Part shown: piece after piece, positions 14,002 through 52,772 of the stretch
Position numbering within the stretch: the stretch's first letter is position 1
How the letters are laid out: each line of letters opens with the position of its first letter
Source of the DNA: Pseudomonadota bacterium
Lineage (GTDB): Bacteria > Pseudomonadota > Alphaproteobacteria > Reyranellales > Reyranellaceae
DNA length: 58,237 nucleotides
Assembly: GCA_020160955.1 (NCBI GenBank)
Contig: JAIUOX010000012.1
Coordinates: forward strand, 1-58,237
Direction of reading: 5' to 3'
Position numbers and translations under genes: made by a program
Notes under the pieces: model-generated
Databases searched by the model: none
The model's input: only the letters and a program-made list of their open reading frames with translations
What the model was told of the DNA's origin: nothing

Positions 14002-14949
14002 TCAGTCCAGGACCTCGTCGGCACGCGCGACGAACAGCGGCGGCAGCGCCAGCCCGATCGCGCGCGCGGTCCTCTGGTTGATCACCAGCTCGACCTTGGT
14101 CGCCTGCTGGACCGGCAGGTCGGCCGGCCGGGCGCCCTTCAGGAGCCGGCTGACCTGGCTGGCGACCGCCCGGTTGATCTCGGCCTGGTCGGCACCGTAC
14201 GAGAACAGGCCGCCCGACTCGGCGTACTCGCGCCGGAACGAGTACGACGGCAGCCGCAGCCGCAGCGCCCGGTCGGCGATGCCGCGCAGGCCGAGGCTGG
14301 GCTGGACCATCGCGCCGCCGACGCCGCGCGCCGCCAGGGTCTCGAACGCCGCCGCCACCTCGTCGGCCGACTTCAGCGGCAGCGCCACCATCTCGAGCTT
14401 CTCGGCGCGGACCACCGGCGCGACGTCGCGCAGCAGCGGCACGTGGAACGGGTCGTTGGCGTTGAGCAGCAGGCCGACCGAGGCGAGGCGCGGCACCAGC
14501 TCGTGCAGCAGCTGGATGCCCTTGCCGGCCAGGGTCGAGCTGGGCGCGAAGGCGCCGGTGATGTTGCCCTCGGGCCGCGCCACGTTGGCGACGGCGCCGG
14601 TGATCGGCGCGCCGCCGTTGAACACGATCGGCAGGGTCGTCGTGGCCTTCATGGCGGCCGCCGTGGCCGGCGACAGGACGGCCACGATGACGTCGACCTT
14701 CAGGGCGACCAGCTCGCGGGCATAGGCGTCGAGCCGGCCGCTGGCCGAATCGGCGGCGCGGTACTCGTAGGTCACCGTCTTGCCCTCGACCAGGCCGAGG
14801 TCGGCCATGGCCTTGCGGAACAGGCTCCAGGTCGGCTCCGGGTCGCCCGACACCAGCACGCCGACCCGCGGCAGGCGCTGCGCCAGGGCGGGCGCCGCCA
14901 GCGTCAGGCCGGCGGCCGTGCCGCCGGCCAGCAGGGACCGCCGCCTCAT
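14002..14949 (-). CDS. ABC_sub_bind-type solute-binding protein
   Basis: This 315-residue periplasmic protein has a twin-arginine-like signal (MRRRSLLAGG, cleavage near ALAQ) and the type 1 periplasmic fold of the ABC_sub_bind family (LPRVGVLVSGDPEPTW, NITGAFAPSSTLAGKGIQLL, LVINQRTARAIGL). Its ATG overlaps the stop of a paralogous gene upstream. There is no permease or ATPase gene nearby, so it may serve a distant transporter. The ligand is unknown; members of the family near transporters often bind aromatic or tryptophan-like molecules. Confidence 0.85.
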   Translation of the reverse strand: MRRRSLLAGGTAAGLTLAAPALAQRLPRVGVLVSGDPEPTWSLFRKAMADLGLVEGKTVTYEYRAADSASGRLDAYARELVALKVDVIVAVLSPATAAAMKATTTLPIVFNGGAPITGAVANVARPEGNITGAFAPSSTLAGKGIQLLHELVPRLASVGLLLNANDPFHVPLLRDVAPVVRAEKLEMVALPLKSADEVAAAFETLAARGVGGAMVQPSLGLRGIADRALRLRLPSYSFRREYAESGGLFSYGADQAEINRAVASQVSRLLKGARPADLPVQQATKVELVINQRTARAIGLALPPLFVARADEVLD

Positions 14950-15923
14950 TCGATGAGCTCGTCGGCGCGCGCCAGGATCAGCGGCGGGATCTGCACGCCG
15001 AGCGTCCGCGCGGTCCGCATGTTGATCACCAGCTCGTAGGTCGCCGGCCGCTGCACCGGCAGCTCGATCGGCCGGGCGCCCTTGAGCATCCGGCCGGCGT
15101 AGGTGCCGAGGATGCGGTACATGTCCGACCAGCGCGTGCCGTAGCTCAGCAGCCCGCCATCGACGGCGAACTCGCGCGCCGGGAAGATGCCGGGCAGGCG
15201 CCGCTCGGCGGCCAGCTGCAGGATCAGGTCGCGGCGATTGATCAGGAACGCGTCGGCGCCGACCGACAGCGCGTCGGCGCCCTTCTCGCCGATCCGGGCG
15301 AAGCCGTCGCGAATCTGCGCGCTGGTCGCCGCGTCGATCAGCCGGAGCTCGAGGCCGAGCGCCCCGGCCGCCTCGCGGGCGCGCGGCAGCTGCTCGCTGT
15401 AGCCGGGGTTCTCGGGATTGAGCATCAGCGCGACCCGGCGCGTGCCGGGCAGCAGGTCGTGCAGGAGGTCGAGCCGCTTGGCGTCGAGCTCGTTGGCCAG
15501 CAGCGTGATGCCGGTGACGTTGCCTTCGGGCCGGTTGAGGTTGGCGACCAGGCCGATCGACACCGGGTCGGCGCCGGCGGCGAACAGCACCGGGATCGTC
15601 GTGGTGGCGGCCTTGGCGGCGAGGCCGACCGGGTTGCCGCCGACCGCGACGAACAGGTCGGGCTTCGTCGCCGCCACCCGGCGGGCGATCTCGGGCACCT
15701 CCTGGTAACGGCCGTCGGCCCAGCGCACGTCGAAGGTGACGTTGCGGCCATCGACGTAGCCCAGCGTCTGCAGCCCCTCCTTGAAGGCCTCCAGCAGGTG
15801 GGCGTCGGTCGCCTGCGAGCGGCCGCTCAGGTAGGCGATGCGCGGCAGGCCGGCCTGCGCCCGCGCCGCGGCGGCCGCGAGCGCCGTCCCGCCAAGGCCG
15901 GTCAGCAATGTGCGACGAATCAT
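14946..15923 (-). CDS. ABC_sub_bind-type solute-binding protein (paralogue)
   Basis: The 325-residue product is a second ABC_sub_bind protein with signal peptide MIRRTLLTGLGGTALAAA and family blocks LPRIAYLSGRSQATDAHLL, EGNVTGITLLANELDAKRLD and LVINMRTARTLGVQIPPL. The ATG at 15923 is preferred. A GTG at 15935 would add only four residues in front of the signal and has no ribosome site. It overlaps its neighbour by ATGA, and the shared C-terminal pattern points to an old tandem duplication. It is divergent from the desaturase gene at 16024. Confidence 0.86.
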   Translation of the reverse strand: MIRRTLLTGLGGTALAAAAARAQAGLPRIAYLSGRSQATDAHLLEAFKEGLQTLGYVDGRNVTFDVRWADGRYQEVPEIARRVAATKPDLFVAVGGNPVGLAAKAATTTIPVLFAAGADPVSIGLVANLNRPEGNVTGITLLANELDAKRLDLLHDLLPGTRRVALMLNPENPGYSEQLPRAREAAGALGLELRLIDAATSAQIRDGFARIGEKGADALSVGADAFLINRRDLILQLAAERRLPGIFPAREFAVDGGLLSYGTRWSDMYRILGTYAGRMLKGARPIELPVQRPATYELVINMRTARTLGVQIPPLILARADELIE

Positions 15924-16023
15924 GAAGGCAATCACCCCGCGACGACTCTAAGCGCAATGCAGCGCGCCCCGCAATGACGGGCCGGCGGCCCGATTCATGC
16001 TAAGTGTCGAGCCGGAGGTCCTC

Positions 16024-17007
16024 ATGTCCGACGCCGCTCTCGCCGCGCCCACTTCGTCGTCCGCCGCGTCGTCCGCTGCAACGCCGCGCTTCGTCGTCAC
16101 CGGCCAGCGCGCGCGCCAGATGCGCGTGATCCCGGCGGACGTGCTGAAGCGCCTCTACGCCCGCTCCGACCTGCACGGCTTCGCGCAGACCGTGGCCCAC
16201 CTCGCGGTCCTGGTGGCCGGCGGCTGGCTGATCCTCGAGACCCGCGGCAGCTGGTGGGTGGTGCCGGCGCTGGTCTGGCAGGGGCTGGTGATCAACGCGC
16301 TGTTCGGCGCGATGCACGAGTCGGTGCATTACGGGTCGTTCCGCACGCGCTGGCTGGCCGACCTGCTGGCCTTCTTCTCGGGCGCGGCGATCCTGCAGAA
16401 CGCCGCGTTCTACCGGCACTACCACATGGCGCATCACCGCTACACGCAGGACCCCGACCGCGATCCCGAGCTGATCACCTCGGTGACGCCGCGCACCTGG
16501 CGCCAGTACCTGTGGCGGGTCAGCGCGATCCCCTTCGTGAAGCTCAGGATCCGCGACATCTTCCTGTTCCCGTTCGGCTTCCGCGGCCAGACCTCGTACA
16601 TCCACCCCTCGGCGTGGCCCGAGATTCGGCGCTGGGGCCGCTGGCTGCTGGCCTTCTATGCCCTGCTGATCGCCGGGTCGCTGTGGTTCCAGACCACGGT
16701 CGTGCTGTGGGTCTGGGTGCTGCCGCTGCTGTGCGGCCTGCCGTTCCTGCGCCTGTACCTGCTGTGCGAACACACGCTGTGCCCGCATTCCGACGACGGC
16801 TTCGCCAACACGCGCACGACGCTCAGCAACCCGCTGGTCCGCTTCCTGATGTGGAACCTGCCGTACCACGCCGAGCATCACCTGTTCCCCAACATCGCCT
16901 TCCACCACCTGCCCGAGGCGCACCGCCACCTGCGGCCGCACCTCAAGTACGTGTCGTCGGGCTACATCGAGGTCCAGCGCGCCATCGTCGGGACGCTCGG
17001 CCGATGA
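16024..17007 (+). CDS. Membrane fatty-acid desaturase family protein
   Basis: This 327-residue di-iron membrane enzyme has three histidine boxes: HESVHYG, HYHMAHHRYTQDPDRDPE and YHAEHHLFPNIAFHHLPEAH. Hydrophobic pairs of helices lie before box 1 and between boxes 2 and 3, as in the FA_desaturase superfamily. Start ATG 16024 has GGAGG at 16014-16018 with five bases of spacing, which rules out the earlier in-frame start at 15997. Its stop overlaps the next gene (ATGA). The substrate could be a fatty acyl chain, a carotenoid-like lipid or an alkane; the sequence alone does not decide. Confidence 0.85.
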   Translation: MSDAALAAPTSSSAASSAATPRFVVTGQRARQMRVIPADVLKRLYARSDLHGFAQTVAHLAVLVAGGWLILETRGSWWVVPALVWQGLVINALFGAMHESVHYGSFRTRWLADLLAFFSGAAILQNAAFYRHYHMAHHRYTQDPDRDPELITSVTPRTWRQYLWRVSAIPFVKLRIRDIFLFPFGFRGQTSYIHPSAWPEIRRWGRWLLAFYALLIAGSLWFQTTVVLWVWVLPLLCGLPFLRLYLLCEHTLCPHSDDGFANTRTTLSNPLVRFLMWNLPYHAEHHLFPNIAFHHLPEAHRHLRPHLKYVSSGYIEVQRAIVGTLGR

Positions 17008-17978
17008 GGACCGAGCAAGGCGACTTTTCCTGCGGCGACCTCGCGCTGCAGCGCGGCGGCACGCTGCGCGACGCGCGCATCGCGTGGAAGAGCTACGGCA
17101 CGCTGTCGCCCAAGCGCGACAACGTCATCGTCTACCCGACGTCGTACGGCGCGCAGCACACCGACATCGAGTGGCTGGTCGCGGTCGAGCACTGCCTCGA
17201 CCCGAGCCGCTACTTCGTCGTCATCCCCAACATGTTCACCAACGGCCTGAGCTCGTCGCCGTCGAACACGCCGGGCCCGTTCCCCGAGGTCACGACCTAC
17301 GACAATGTCATGCAGCAGCGCCGCCTGCTGGCCGAGCAGTTCGGCGTCGACCGCGTGAAGATGGTCTACGGCTGGTCGATGGGCGCGCAGCAGGCCTATC
17401 ACTGGGCGGCGCTGTTCGGCGACGCGGTCGAGCGCATCGTCGTGAACTGCGGCTCGGCACGCACCGCGCCGCACAACTTCGTGTTCCTCGAGGGCGTGCG
17501 CTCCGCCGTCCAGAACGCCCGCACGCCGGAGGAGGGCCTGCGCGCGATGGGCCGCATCTACGCCGGCTGGGCGCTCAGCCAGACCTTCTACCGGCGCGAG
17601 ATGTGGCGCGGCCTGGGCTTCGCCAGCCTCGAGGACTTCCTGGTGCGGTCGTGGGAGGCCAACTTCCTGCGCCGCGACGCGCGCGACCTGATGGCCCAGC
17701 TGTGGACCTGGCAGAACGGCGACATCTCGGCCAATGACCTCTACCGCGGCGATCTCCGGATGGCGCTGGCCGGCATCTCCGCGAAGGTGCTGCTGATGCC
17801 GTCGGCCACCGACCTCTACTTCCAGACCGACGACAACCGCGAGGAGCTGCCGCACCTGCGCCGCGGCCGCCTGGTCGAGATCCCCTCGGTCTGGGGCCAC
17901 CGCGCCGGCAACCCGTGGTCCAATCCCGAGGACGCGGCGTTCATCGACCGCCAGGTGGAAGCGCTGCTGGCGGAGTAG
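17004..17978 (+). CDS. MetX-like alpha/beta-hydrolase fold protein
   Basis: The 324-residue protein resembles homoserine O-acetyltransferases in layout: YGTLSPKRDNVIVYPTSYGA at the start, nucleophile elbow GWSMGAQQAYHW, acid in PSATDLYF, and catalytic histidine in WGHRAGNPW. True MetX enzymes usually carry GGSMGG, so this is a divergent member whose acyl acceptor cannot be named. It is translationally coupled to the desaturase gene, which suggests that the two act on related lipids or acyl compounds. The next gene begins 58 bases downstream. Confidence 0.75.
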   Translation: MRTEQGDFSCGDLALQRGGTLRDARIAWKSYGTLSPKRDNVIVYPTSYGAQHTDIEWLVAVEHCLDPSRYFVVIPNMFTNGLSSSPSNTPGPFPEVTTYDNVMQQRRLLAEQFGVDRVKMVYGWSMGAQQAYHWAALFGDAVERIVVNCGSARTAPHNFVFLEGVRSAVQNARTPEEGLRAMGRIYAGWALSQTFYRREMWRGLGFASLEDFLVRSWEANFLRRDARDLMAQLWTWQNGDISANDLYRGDLRMALAGISAKVLLMPSATDLYFQTDDNREELPHLRRGRLVEIPSVWGHRAGNPWSNPEDAAFIDRQVEALLAE

Positions 17979-18036: not shown

Positions 18037-19488
18037 ATGGCTCCCGACACGCTCCTGCCGCGCGACGGTCTCGTGATCGTCGCCAAGCGCGACTGCCCGA
18101 CCTGCACGCTGATCGAGCCGGTGATGCAGAGCCTCGATCGCGCCGGGCCGCTCGCCGTGATCGTCCAGGACGACCCGGCCTTCCCGTCCGGCGTGCGCGC
18201 CGTGATCGACGATCGCGCGCTGGAACGCTCGTTCCGCCTCGACGTCGAGGCGGTGCCGACCCTGATCCGCTTCGAGGGCGGCCGCGAGGTCGCGCGCTGC
18301 GTCGGCTGGCAGCGCGGCGAGTGGCGGCGCGTCGCCGGCGAGGCCGCGGCGGGCGACGGCCTGCCCGAATGGCAGCCGGGCTGCGGCTCGCGCAGCGTCG
18401 AGCCCGGCGTGCACGAGACGCTGGTGGCGCGCTACGGCGATCCCAAGCTGGCGTCGCGGGCGATCGCGGTCGGCGAATGGGACGACCCGATCGAGGCCTG
18501 CTTCGAGCGCGGCTGGAGCGACGGCCTGCCGGTCGTGCCGCCGACCGACGACCGCATCCTGCGCATGCTGGGCGGCACCGACCGCAGGCCCGACGAGGTG
18601 GTCGGGCTGGTGCCGCCGAACCTCGCGCCCTGCACGGTCGAGAAGGTGGCGATCAACGCGGTGATGGCCGGCTGCAAGCCGGAATACATGCCGGTCGTGC
18701 TGGGCGTGCTGGAAGCCGCGCTCGACCCGCTGTTCACGCTGCACGGGCTGCTCTGCACGACGCACTTCTCGGGACCGCTGGTCATCATCAACGGCCCGGT
18801 GGCGCGCGCCATCGGCATGAACAGCGGCGTCAACGCGCTGGGCCAGGGCAACCGCGCCAACGCCACGATCGGCCGCGCCCTGCAGCTGATCGTGCGCAAC
18901 GTCGGCGGCGGCCTGCCCGGCGCGATCGATCGCGCGACGCTGGGCAATCCCGGCAAGTACACCTTCTGCTTCGCCGAGGACGAGTCCGACCCGGCGTGGG
19001 AGCCGCTGTCGGTGCGCCGCGGCATCGCGCCCGGCAAGAGCGCCGTCACGCTGTTCCACGGCGAGGGCGTGCACGGCTTCATCGACCAGAAGTCGCGCAC
19101 GCCGGAGGACCTCGTGCGCTCGCTGGCGATGGCGCTGTTCGGCGTCGGCCATCCCAAGCTCTGCGACTCGGGCAACGCCGTGCTGGTGCTGTCGCCCGAG
19201 CACTGGGCGATCTTCCGCGACGCCGGCTGGGAGCGCCGCCGGCTGGAGGACGCGCTGTACCAGGCGCTGAAGCGGCCGGGCCGCGACCTCGTGTACGGCG
19301 CGCAGGGCGTCGGCGAGGGCCTGCCGCCGTCGCTGGCGGACAAGGTCGTCGACAAGTTCCAGCCCGACGGGCTGCTGATCGTTCGCGCCGGCGGCGACGC
19401 CGGCCTGTTCTCGGCCATCATCGGCGGCTGGCCCGGCCAGCGCGTTCGCACCGAATGCCAGGCCGTCACGAGGGAGATCCAGACATGA
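18037..19488 (+). CDS. Thioredoxin-like domain fused to a large unassigned domain; partner of the UGSC selenoprotein
   Basis: The first 105 residues look like a thioredoxin fold: redox pair CPTC at 20-23 after a hydrophobic strand (GLVIVAKRD), a cis-proline loop at VEAVPTLIRFEGG (P74), and a glycine turn. Residues about 115-483 form a second domain that I do not recognise by family name. It contains conserved-looking blocks (GLPVVPPTDDRILRMLGG, PPNLAPCTVEKVAINAVMAG, GPVARAIGMNSGVNALGQG, SPEHWAIFRDAGW) and several cysteines (C88, C116, C155 and others). The gene overlaps the selenoprotein gene by ATGA. A role as electron donor or assembly partner for the Sec protein is inferred. Confidence 0.75.
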   Translation: MAPDTLLPRDGLVIVAKRDCPTCTLIEPVMQSLDRAGPLAVIVQDDPAFPSGVRAVIDDRALERSFRLDVEAVPTLIRFEGGREVARCVGWQRGEWRRVAGEAAAGDGLPEWQPGCGSRSVEPGVHETLVARYGDPKLASRAIAVGEWDDPIEACFERGWSDGLPVVPPTDDRILRMLGGTDRRPDEVVGLVPPNLAPCTVEKVAINAVMAGCKPEYMPVVLGVLEAALDPLFTLHGLLCTTHFSGPLVIINGPVARAIGMNSGVNALGQGNRANATIGRALQLIVRNVGGGLPGAIDRATLGNPGKYTFCFAEDESDPAWEPLSVRRGIAPGKSAVTLFHGEGVHGFIDQKSRTPEDLVRSLAMALFGVGHPKLCDSGNAVLVLSPEHWAIFRDAGWERRRLEDALYQALKRPGRDLVYGAQGVGEGLPPSLADKVVDKFQPDGLLIVRAGGDAGLFSAIIGGWPGQRVRTECQAVTREIQT

Positions 19489-20006
19489 CCGCATCGCTTT
19501 CCCTGCGCGATCCCACCGCCGAGCAGAGCCCGACCCGGCGCGCCCGCCTCGCGCCGCCGCCGTCGCTCGACGGCCGGACCGTGGCGCTGATGGACATCGG
19601 CAAGTCGCGTGGCAAGGAATTCATCGACCGTCTGGAAGGTCACTTCCGCGCCGCCGGCATCGCCACGAAGCGCTACGCCAAGCCGACCAACACCAAGGTC
19701 GCGCCGACCGCGTTGCTGCAGCAGATCGCGGCCGAGGCGCAACTCGCGGTGATCGCCTTAAGCGATTGAGGCTCCTGCACATCGTGCAGTCTGCACGACC
19801 TTGCGAACCTCGACAGCCGCGGCCTTCCGGGCGTCAACATCGTCACCACCGGCTTCGTCGATGGCGTCGCCGCCCAGAGCGACGCGCTGGGCTTCGAGCC
19901 GGCCGTCGTCTACGTGCCGCATCCCATCCAGAACCGCACCACCGCCGAGATCGAGGCGATCGCCGACGCGGCGTTCGCGAAGGTGGTGGCGTTGCTGAAG
20001 GCGTGA
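19485..20006 (+). CDS. UGSC-motif selenoprotein (in-frame UGA = Sec95)
   Basis: The frame starting at ATG 19485 meets TGA at 19767-19769 and continues without interruption for 78 further codons to TGA 20004-20006, giving 173 residues. Reading the first TGA as selenocysteine gives LSD-U-GSCTSCSLHDLANL, the motif of UGSC-type (seleno)proteins, in which homologues have U or C at this point. Coding character continues past the TGA (AVVYVPHPIQNRTTAEIEA). Directly after the UGA, 19782-19788 pairs with 19792-19798 around a GTC loop. The loop G and U are at positions 23 and 24 from the UGA, as in the E. coli fdhF SECIS. The upstream gene encodes a CPTC thioredoxin-like protein. A Cys-to-stop mutation is the alternative but would not explain the hairpin. 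Confidence 0.88.
19767..19800 (+). promoter_or_regulatory. Bacterial SECIS-like element
   Basis: Counting the U of UGA (19767) as 1, the apical loop G and U fall at positions 23 and 24 (19789-19790). The bases at positions 24-30 (UCUGCAC) are the same as I recall for the E. coli fdhF SECIS. The seven-pair stem is 19782-19788 with 19792-19798. An alternative six-pair hairpin (19775-19780 with 19784-19789) competes with it. It would recruit SelB to decode UGA 19767-19769. Confidence 0.8.
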
Positions 20007-20008
20007 CT

Positions 20009-20061
20009 GGGACCGCGCGCGTCCCGCGCGCCTCATGAGCGCGCGGGACGCGCGCGGTCCC
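20009..20061. repeat. 22-bp stem hairpin repeat, likely bidirectional terminator
   Basis: Bases 20009-20030 are the exact reverse complement of 20040-20061, with a 9-base loop (CCTCATGAG). It lies between the convergent selenoprotein gene and the hydrolase gene at 20071. A second copy with the same right arm is at 52721-52772, also between convergent genes. GC-rich arms read GGGACCGCGCGCG. Confidence 0.9.
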
Positions 20062-52720: not shown

Positions 52721-52772
52721 GGGACCGCGGGCCTCCGGCCCGCTCATGAGCGCGCGGGACGCGCGCGGTCCC
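52721..52772. repeat. Second copy of the GGGACCGCG hairpin repeat
   Basis: The right part (CTCATGAGCGCGCGGGACGC, continuing to the final GGTCCC) is identical to the copy at 20009-20061. The left arm differs internally (GGGCCTCCGGCCC). The outer GGGACCGCG and CGCGGTCCC pair. It lies between convergent DUF2244 and dapB and may terminate both. Confidence 0.88.

Follow-up and report, generated by a model that had tools for sequence, protein, structure and literature searches.

The UGSC family of selenoproteins was described in 2008 by Zhang and Gladyshev (PMC2398784) from 255 sequences with selenocysteine (Sec, U) and 21 with cysteine. The passages of that paper on the family place it among the most frequent selenoproteins of ocean-sampling metagenomes, suppose a thioredoxin-like fold for it, and report its fusion to a domain named 'Unknown_1'. 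The family is also counted in passages of later surveys, and UGSC-motif selenoproteins are mentioned, in a passage on Geodermatophilaceae, together with a tRNA-Sec of anticodon CUA (PMC5330540). None of these passages of the UGSC literature gives a function or activity for any member. Here, we analyze a further member, encoded with an in-frame TGA in a 58,237-nucleotide stretch of DNA (contig JAIUOX010000012.1 of assembly GCA_020160955.1; hereafter, the window) from an alphaproteobacterium of the Reyranellaceae, where it lies next to the gene for a thioredoxin-fused partner protein. An earlier interpretation, made from the DNA letters (the sequence-only reading), had claimed a hidden selenoprotein at this place. 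The protein is not the founder of a new family, as the family has been known since 2008 and is represented by Pfam and NCBIfam models (PF24696 and NF041046).

A second point of comparison is provided by GrdB and PrdB, the selenoproteins of the glycine, betaine, sarcosine and D-proline reductases (PF07355, TIGR01917 and TIGR04483). Their hosts are anaerobes of the Clostridia type, whereas UGSC genes are found in Alphaproteobacteria such as Reyranella. Passages of a recent review (PMC13188914) give UxxCxxC as the GrdB motif, the window protein having UGSCTSC, and describe glycine reductase as an enzyme of several proteins with thioredoxin as its electron source. Moreover, another study (PMC10838667) proposes GrdB-like proteins for the cleavage of the C-F bond of fluoroacetate, and the chemistry of UGSC proteins therefore need not concern C-N bonds. 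In the passages of the UGSC and glycine reductase literature we found no link between UGSC and GrdB, and neither the clade of the window protein nor its thioredoxin-fused partner appeared there.

We focused our attention on the reading frame that carries the TGA (Table 1). From its ATG, which overlaps the stop codon of the partner gene (ATGA), the frame runs for 94 codons to the TGA and continues for another 78 before it stops at 20004-20006. The residues around the TGA read SD-U-GSC-TSCSLHDL. The sequence-only reading had given both the length of this extension and the motif correctly, as well as the truncation at residue 94 expected from automatic gene callers: the list of open reading frames made without Sec decoding ends the frame at 19769. 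The read-through product belongs to PF24696 (119.6 bits against a cut-off of 25, E=2e-34), the match spanning residues 7-172 of the protein and positions 2-171 of the 172 in the profile. In addition, nonsynonymous (dN) and synonymous (dS) divergence were alike before and after the TGA against six out of six close orthologues (for locus L059, dN/dS values of 0.092/0.361 before and 0.080/0.324 after), so that the coding character claimed for the extension is borne out by the selection kept there. As judged from these comparisons, the two sides of the TGA are under similar purifying selection, contrary to what is expected for a true stop. The TGA is shared by the six nearest orthologues found (84-87% identity); the next homologues are mixed, and those of the Cys type carry TGC or TGT where the TGA residue aligns, in line with the alignment across position 95 that the sequence-only reading had proposed. 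An in-frame UGA aligned with the Cys of homologues is a hallmark of selenoproteins. The genome of the window holds four UGSC genes, each with a TGA and each beside a partner gene. With the TGA in the orthologues and in all genome copies, the codon is therefore not a misread Cys codon, an outcome that the sequence-only reading had itself named as fatal to its claim. Taken together with the hairpin and the machinery described below, the sequence evidence makes it nearly certain that this UGA is decoded as Sec at residue 95.

Directly after the UGA lies a hairpin of the type of the bacterial Sec insertion sequence (SECIS), with G23 and U24 (19789-19790, counted from the U of UGA) in its apical loop, another hallmark of selenoproteins. 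The sequence-only reading had pointed to this loop and to a match to Escherichia coli fdhF at bases 24-30; in fact, bases 23-30 are identical to fdhF of strain K-12, one base more than claimed, and agreement beyond them is scattered (8 of the 37 remaining positions out of 45 compared). The fold, which it had proposed to compute, has -18.1 kcal/mol and a z-score of -2.62 for the 50 nucleotides from the UGA, a value equalled by 4 of 200 shuffles. As in fdhF and FdhG, the UGA precedes a hairpin whose apical loop bears G23U24; the predicted fold gives the window hairpin a smaller apical loop. As a control for chance, we scanned every TGA triplet of the window, 1126 over the two strands: 105 have GT at positions 23-24 and four also form five stem pairs, the codons open before/after the TGA being 587/78 for the one at 19767 and 10/25, 16/35 and 45/8 for the others. 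The scan was extended to four other stretches of the same genome (L027, L028, L029 and L011; 62.5 kb), where 3 of 1212 TGAs pass and correspond to the three UGSC paralogues. The rule is strict, since the TGA of an fdhG-type gene in L011 fails its five stem pairs despite having GT at 23-24.

Comparison among homologues points in the same direction. G23U24 is present in all 44 distinct 45-mers of the TGA type, as opposed to 3 of the 58 of the Cys type, and stem pair 21-27 is paired in 44/44 and 30/58, respectively. Over six stem pairs and 44 sequences, 96.2% of the cells are paired; three pairs change on both sides and two are invariant. None of 500 shuffles (mean score 0.131) reached the covariation score of the stem, 0.186, and all slid versions of the stem scored lower (0 to 0.084). 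As related sequences may exceed shuffles through descent, the strongest single piece of hairpin evidence is found in paralogue L025, in which C21-G27 became G21-C27 with a change of Cys to Trp and of Leu to Phe in the protein. Furthermore, the Ser codon in the loop of the window gene is AGT, one of only two among the 70 Ser codons of the four-gene run, a choice explained by the requirement of the hairpin.

The genome also holds the machinery for Sec decoding. Genes selA (567 bits) and selB (461 bits) lie on one contig (C203) and selD (380 bits) on another (C106), and a tRNA-Sec gene (selC; 75.7 bits with Rfam, anticodon tca (UCA) by ARAGORN) stands beside selA and selB, all four over their curated cut-offs; a second Rfam tRNA-Sec match over the cut-off is a tRNA-Ser according to ARAGORN. 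The search for these genes had been suggested by the sequence-only reading, which would have yielded to their absence. Upstream of the selA-selB-selC run, on the same strand, are open reading frames that we read from their translations as formate dehydrogenase genes. The fdhG-type gene among them also contains an in-frame TGA, with GT at positions 23-24 after it.

To place this gene in its family, we surveyed UGSC across the class with a sample of 289 genomes and checked the location of the TGA in those loci that were fetched. UGSC was found in 28 genomes with 74 genes, 73 of which have exactly one stop, a TGA, and selB over the cut-off was present in 27 of these 28 genomes as opposed to 14 of the 261 without UGSC. 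The sole UGSC genome without selB (G011) has four TGA-type genes and is 77% complete. The only gene of the 74 free of a stop (L054, G246:C330:12739-13248) could not be parsed at the site, and its genome has selB. Among 113 loci, the window included, 52 have a TGA and 59 a Cys codon at the site, L054 and L055 being unparsed, a Sec:Cys ratio that carries no meaning as one of the two patterns of the locus scan requires a Cys codon. In the protein databases, C stands at the site in all 120 proteins listed out of 552 matches, which is what databases that lose TGA-type genes should show; the DNA loci are firmer than the protein matches, since the tools print U as C. The window is a case in point, showing how a UGA hides part of the UGSC genes from gene callers. 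A quick tree of 111 sequences with the trait columns masked, which carries long-branch warnings, gave at least six changes between Sec and Cys, three of them forced by well-supported branches. The four motif residues do not vary across the alignment of 58 proteins, of which one is Sec-type and 57 are Cys-type, while, elsewhere, L047 has UGAC in place of UGSC and paralogue L025 has lost the third Cys/Sec position of the motif. A plasmid search returned one distant haloarchaeal match, annotated as UGSC family.

The partner is encoded directly upstream of the UGSC gene. Its thioredoxin assignment rests on a CPTC motif and weak thioredoxin matches (15.1 bits, below the Pfam cut-off of 27), and its C-terminal domain bears no Pfam or NCBIfam name and has no match over the cut-off in either. 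Conserved residues of the partner include DGLPVVPPT, NGP and RANATIGRA. Of 109 loci with fetched DNA (L030-L138), 107 hold a relative of this C-terminal domain (tblastn, E<=1e-3; the misses being L043 and L132); many of these loci are closely related to one another and hence not independent cases. Relatives were also found in all three paralogue loci of the same genome. The relative is usually the next gene to UGSC, lying more than 1 kb away in L128 and L136, and the two are fused in one chain in L127, L129, L133 and in database proteins, some of them actinobacterial. The domain 'Unknown_1' of 2008 may be this same partner domain. Overall, UGSC very probably works as a two-protein enzyme with its neighbour. 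The window protein shares with the described family the Pfam assignment, the motif and the existence of Sec and Cys forms, a fusion to another domain being on record for the family since 2008; it differs in its score below the NCBIfam cut-off, in the extended UxxCxxC motif (UGSCTSC), in the N-terminal thioredoxin domain of its partner, found beside window-type UGSC only, and in a predicted fold that is flavodoxin-like, as opposed to the thioredoxin-like one supposed earlier. Among the database proteins, a group of about 400-450 residues (P0256-P0288) was also noticed, 20 of its 33 members having been aligned; among the half of these 20 listed, many start within some tens of residues after the Sec site of UGSC-partner fusions, and they are probably Sec fusion genes that gene callers have truncated.

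The predicted model of the UGSC protein in its C95 form, built with 58 sequences, has a predicted local distance difference test score (pLDDT) of 93.7. Its five strands alternate with helices, and residue 95 sits between strand 87-93 and helix 96-111; the fold matches listed for it are flavodoxin-like and similar folds, a list that leaves room for families outside it. A natural fusion (L129) was predicted with a pLDDT of 86.1 and a predicted template modelling score of 0.87. At E<=1, matches to the model of glycine reductase selenoprotein B were obtained for 43 of the 58 UGSC proteins (best E-value, 1.3e-6), to the broader selenoprotein B model for 31 and to PrdB for 12, all of them far under the curated cut-offs as seen for the window protein. 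The likeness to GrdB and PrdB consists of a weak alignment that sets Sec on Sec and of a UxxC(xxC) motif placed after a strand and before a helix, and the differences lie in the small size of UGSC (173 residues), the lack of a PF07355 match, and a partner with no recognised relation to the other reductase subunits. Apart from UGSC, a second Sec family was observed in Alphaproteobacteria, consisting of PrdB-like proteins of about 400 residues (L140-L158, from other genomes of the class); in 11 of 13 aligned, a TGA occupies the U of PV-U-PxCTR, Cys codons being present in the other two, and several genomes have these genes on the same contig as selB. PF07355 has no match in the genome of the window.

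Genes resembling thioredoxin reductase occur in 12 of 83 loci (L027-L029 and L059-L138), all 12 encoding a CxxC motif, and adjoin UGSC in L029, L109, L120, L126 and L135. In the five products scanned, the thioredoxin reductase model was the best match, over its cut-off in L104 and L109 and under it in L029, L120 and L126.

The partner, its CPTC domain, these reductase-like neighbours and the weak GrdB similarity lead us, therefore, to propose a reductive enzyme fed by thioredoxin. In the reading that we favor, and consider reasonably probable, the UGSC protein with Sec95 and its thioredoxin-fused partner would together form a two-protein enzyme, in which the former is the reductase subunit and carries the selenol and the latter holds the substrate. 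Sec95, at the helix start after the third strand of the predicted flavodoxin-like domain, would attack an electrophilic centre of a substrate held together with the partner; Cys98, within UGSC, or Cys101 would then resolve the selenide or selenenyl-sulfide so formed, and the CPTC domain of the partner, itself fed by thioredoxin reductase, would restore the selenol with electrons from thioredoxin. Such a cycle would follow the logic of GrdB and PrdB in glycine and D-proline reductase, and we give even chances to a GrdB-like reductive cleavage by UGSC and its partner. A broader proposal is more tentative, and we lean against it: UGSC and the 'DGLPVVPPT' partner may form a further widespread class of Sec/Cys reductive C-X lyases, related to glycine and D-proline reductase and provided with a different partner, which would work in aerobic-type bacteria with thioredoxin electrons on many substrates, through several paralogous pairs per genome. 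We infer Sec decoding, reductase chemistry, electron route and physical complex, and everything chemical in the mechanism, from sequence, gene order and conservation. Accordingly, of the claim of a hidden selenoprotein with an active site, the selenoprotein is supported, and the active site is a matter of prediction, as the passages of the UGSC literature report no activity for any member. With the partner, the fusions, the thioredoxin domain and the reductase neighbours, a protein described as 'redox, unknown' becomes amenable to assay as a pair, for which an electron donor can be proposed.

Several observations weigh against this reading. With regard to the gene, the protein stays below the curated cut-off of the NCBIfam equivalog model UGSC_fam (NF041046; 117.2 bits against 125), a model matched at E<=1 by all 58 aligned proteins; a search of Rfam up to E=1 recognises no family at the hairpin; 8 of 44 sequences do not pair at stem pair 22-26; and sliding the stem by -1 gives 11 cells changed on both sides, as compared to nine for the true stem. 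The genome, moreover, is a draft of 210 contigs, 87.4% complete and with 5.9% contamination. Contamination is, however, an unlikely cause of the Sec pattern, because selB also occurs together with two TGA-type UGSC genes on the one contig of another genome of the same genus (G066). With regard to kinship, flavodoxin-like folds are common, so that fold matches prove little; the window protein matches glycine reductase selenoprotein B with E=3.6e-4, far under the curated cut-offs; and the profile-profile alignment of UGSC with alphaproteobacterial GrdB/PrdB-like proteins, which sets Sec on Sec with E 2.8e-4, has a probability of only 41%. PF07355 is not among the 16 families matched at E<=1 by any of the 58 UGSC proteins, and UGSC is therefore not a member of it, the claim being that it works like one. 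A pyruvoyl-type partner, as in D-proline reductase, was not recognised by Pfam or NCBIfam, the fold of the partner not having been searched alone. Finally, the share of loci with a thioredoxin-reductase-like gene is low.

Among other explanations, the one that survives best, although we consider it unlikely, is that UGSC acts as a general disulfide reductase. The UxxC motif, the thioredoxin domain of the partner and the reductase-like neighbours would fit this function, and a passage of the 2008 paper (PMC2398784) can be counted for it; against it stand the predicted fold, with its alternating strands and helices and its listed matches to flavodoxin-like and similar folds, the large second protein beside nearly all UGSC copies, and neighbours that vary with catabolic genes (BKACE, CoA-transferase III and DctA). 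It is considerably less probable that the UGSCTSC motif serves to bind or transport a metal, a metalloid or an organometal, in place of reductive catalysis. Such a Cys/Sec-rich motif does fit metal binding, and passages of reviews (including PMC13188914) mention an organometallic operon assisted by Sec and consider that other selenoproteins may be metal ligands, but the best matches of the 16 distinct neighbour proteins that were scanned place none of them in a metal-handling family, and the motif itself has lost its third Cys/Sec position in L025 while the four UGSC residues are invariant in the 58 proteins. That the UGA is a real stop, ending a 94-residue protein or a decaying gene, is what a caller ignorant of Sec would report, and it is very improbable in view of the similar selection before and after the TGA, of the 52 loci in which a TGA is followed by the hairpin loop, and of the Sec machinery. 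Hardly conceivable is an error of sequencing or assembly at a Cys codon, to which a draft assembly and the existence of Cys homologues might lend themselves, as three paralogues and six orthologues, the latter taken from other records, have the same TGA and hairpin, the loop Ser is encoded by the rare AGT that the hairpin requires, and G23U24 is lacking in 55 of 58 Cys-type genes.

Table 1. Coordinates of the features described in the window.
Feature	Position	Strand	Remarks
UGSC-family (seleno)protein gene	19485..20006	+	173 residues with Sec95, plus stop; PF24696
In-frame TGA, predicted Sec95	19767..19769	+	TGA in the 6 nearest orthologues found and in 4/4 genome copies
Apical stem-loop, bacterial SECIS-type	19783..19797	+	stem 19783-19788 with 19792-19797, loop 19789-19791
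Partner protein gene, 483 aa	18037..19488	+	N-terminal thioredoxin-like CPTC domain ~18037-18390; unnamed 'DGLPVVPPT' domain ~18391-19485
Alpha/beta hydrolase gene, MetX-like	17004..17978	+	NF005757, 440 bits, over cut-off 332
Fatty-acid-desaturase superfamily protein gene	15997..17007	+	PF00487
Near-perfect GC-rich inverted repeat, 53 bases	20009..20061	.	after the UGSC gene

Upstream of the pair, the desaturase-family gene overlaps the MetX-like hydrolase gene by 4 bases, and both are likely to belong to the same operon as the partner and UGSC genes. The two precede the pair in five of six Reyranella-type loci, the sixth (L064) being cut short, and the neighbours differ in other clades. Among seven Bacteroidota loci, for instance, five (L066, L068, L071, L078 and L083; not L067 and L074) have a BKACE-type gene directly before the partner and a Cys-type UGSC gene, accompanied by a 3-hydroxyacyl-CoA-dehydrogenase-like gene and an AraC regulator, with an amino-acid permease gene opposite. 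The BKACE gene of L066, the one scanned, falls under the cut-off of all four models that it matched. Carnitine or betaine, considered as a substrate from these neighbours, was dropped, the carnitine dehydrogenase models being far under their cut-offs in L066.

Downstream, the inverted repeat that follows the UGSC gene is probably a transcription terminator between convergent genes; the 63-nucleotide stretch containing it folds with -60.8 kcal/mol and a z-score of -9.7. One 17-base arm of the repeat recurs once in the window, at 52756-52772. Further upstream, on the minus strand (14002-15935), two adjacent and similar-looking open reading frames can be read from their translations as ABC-type substrate-binding proteins.
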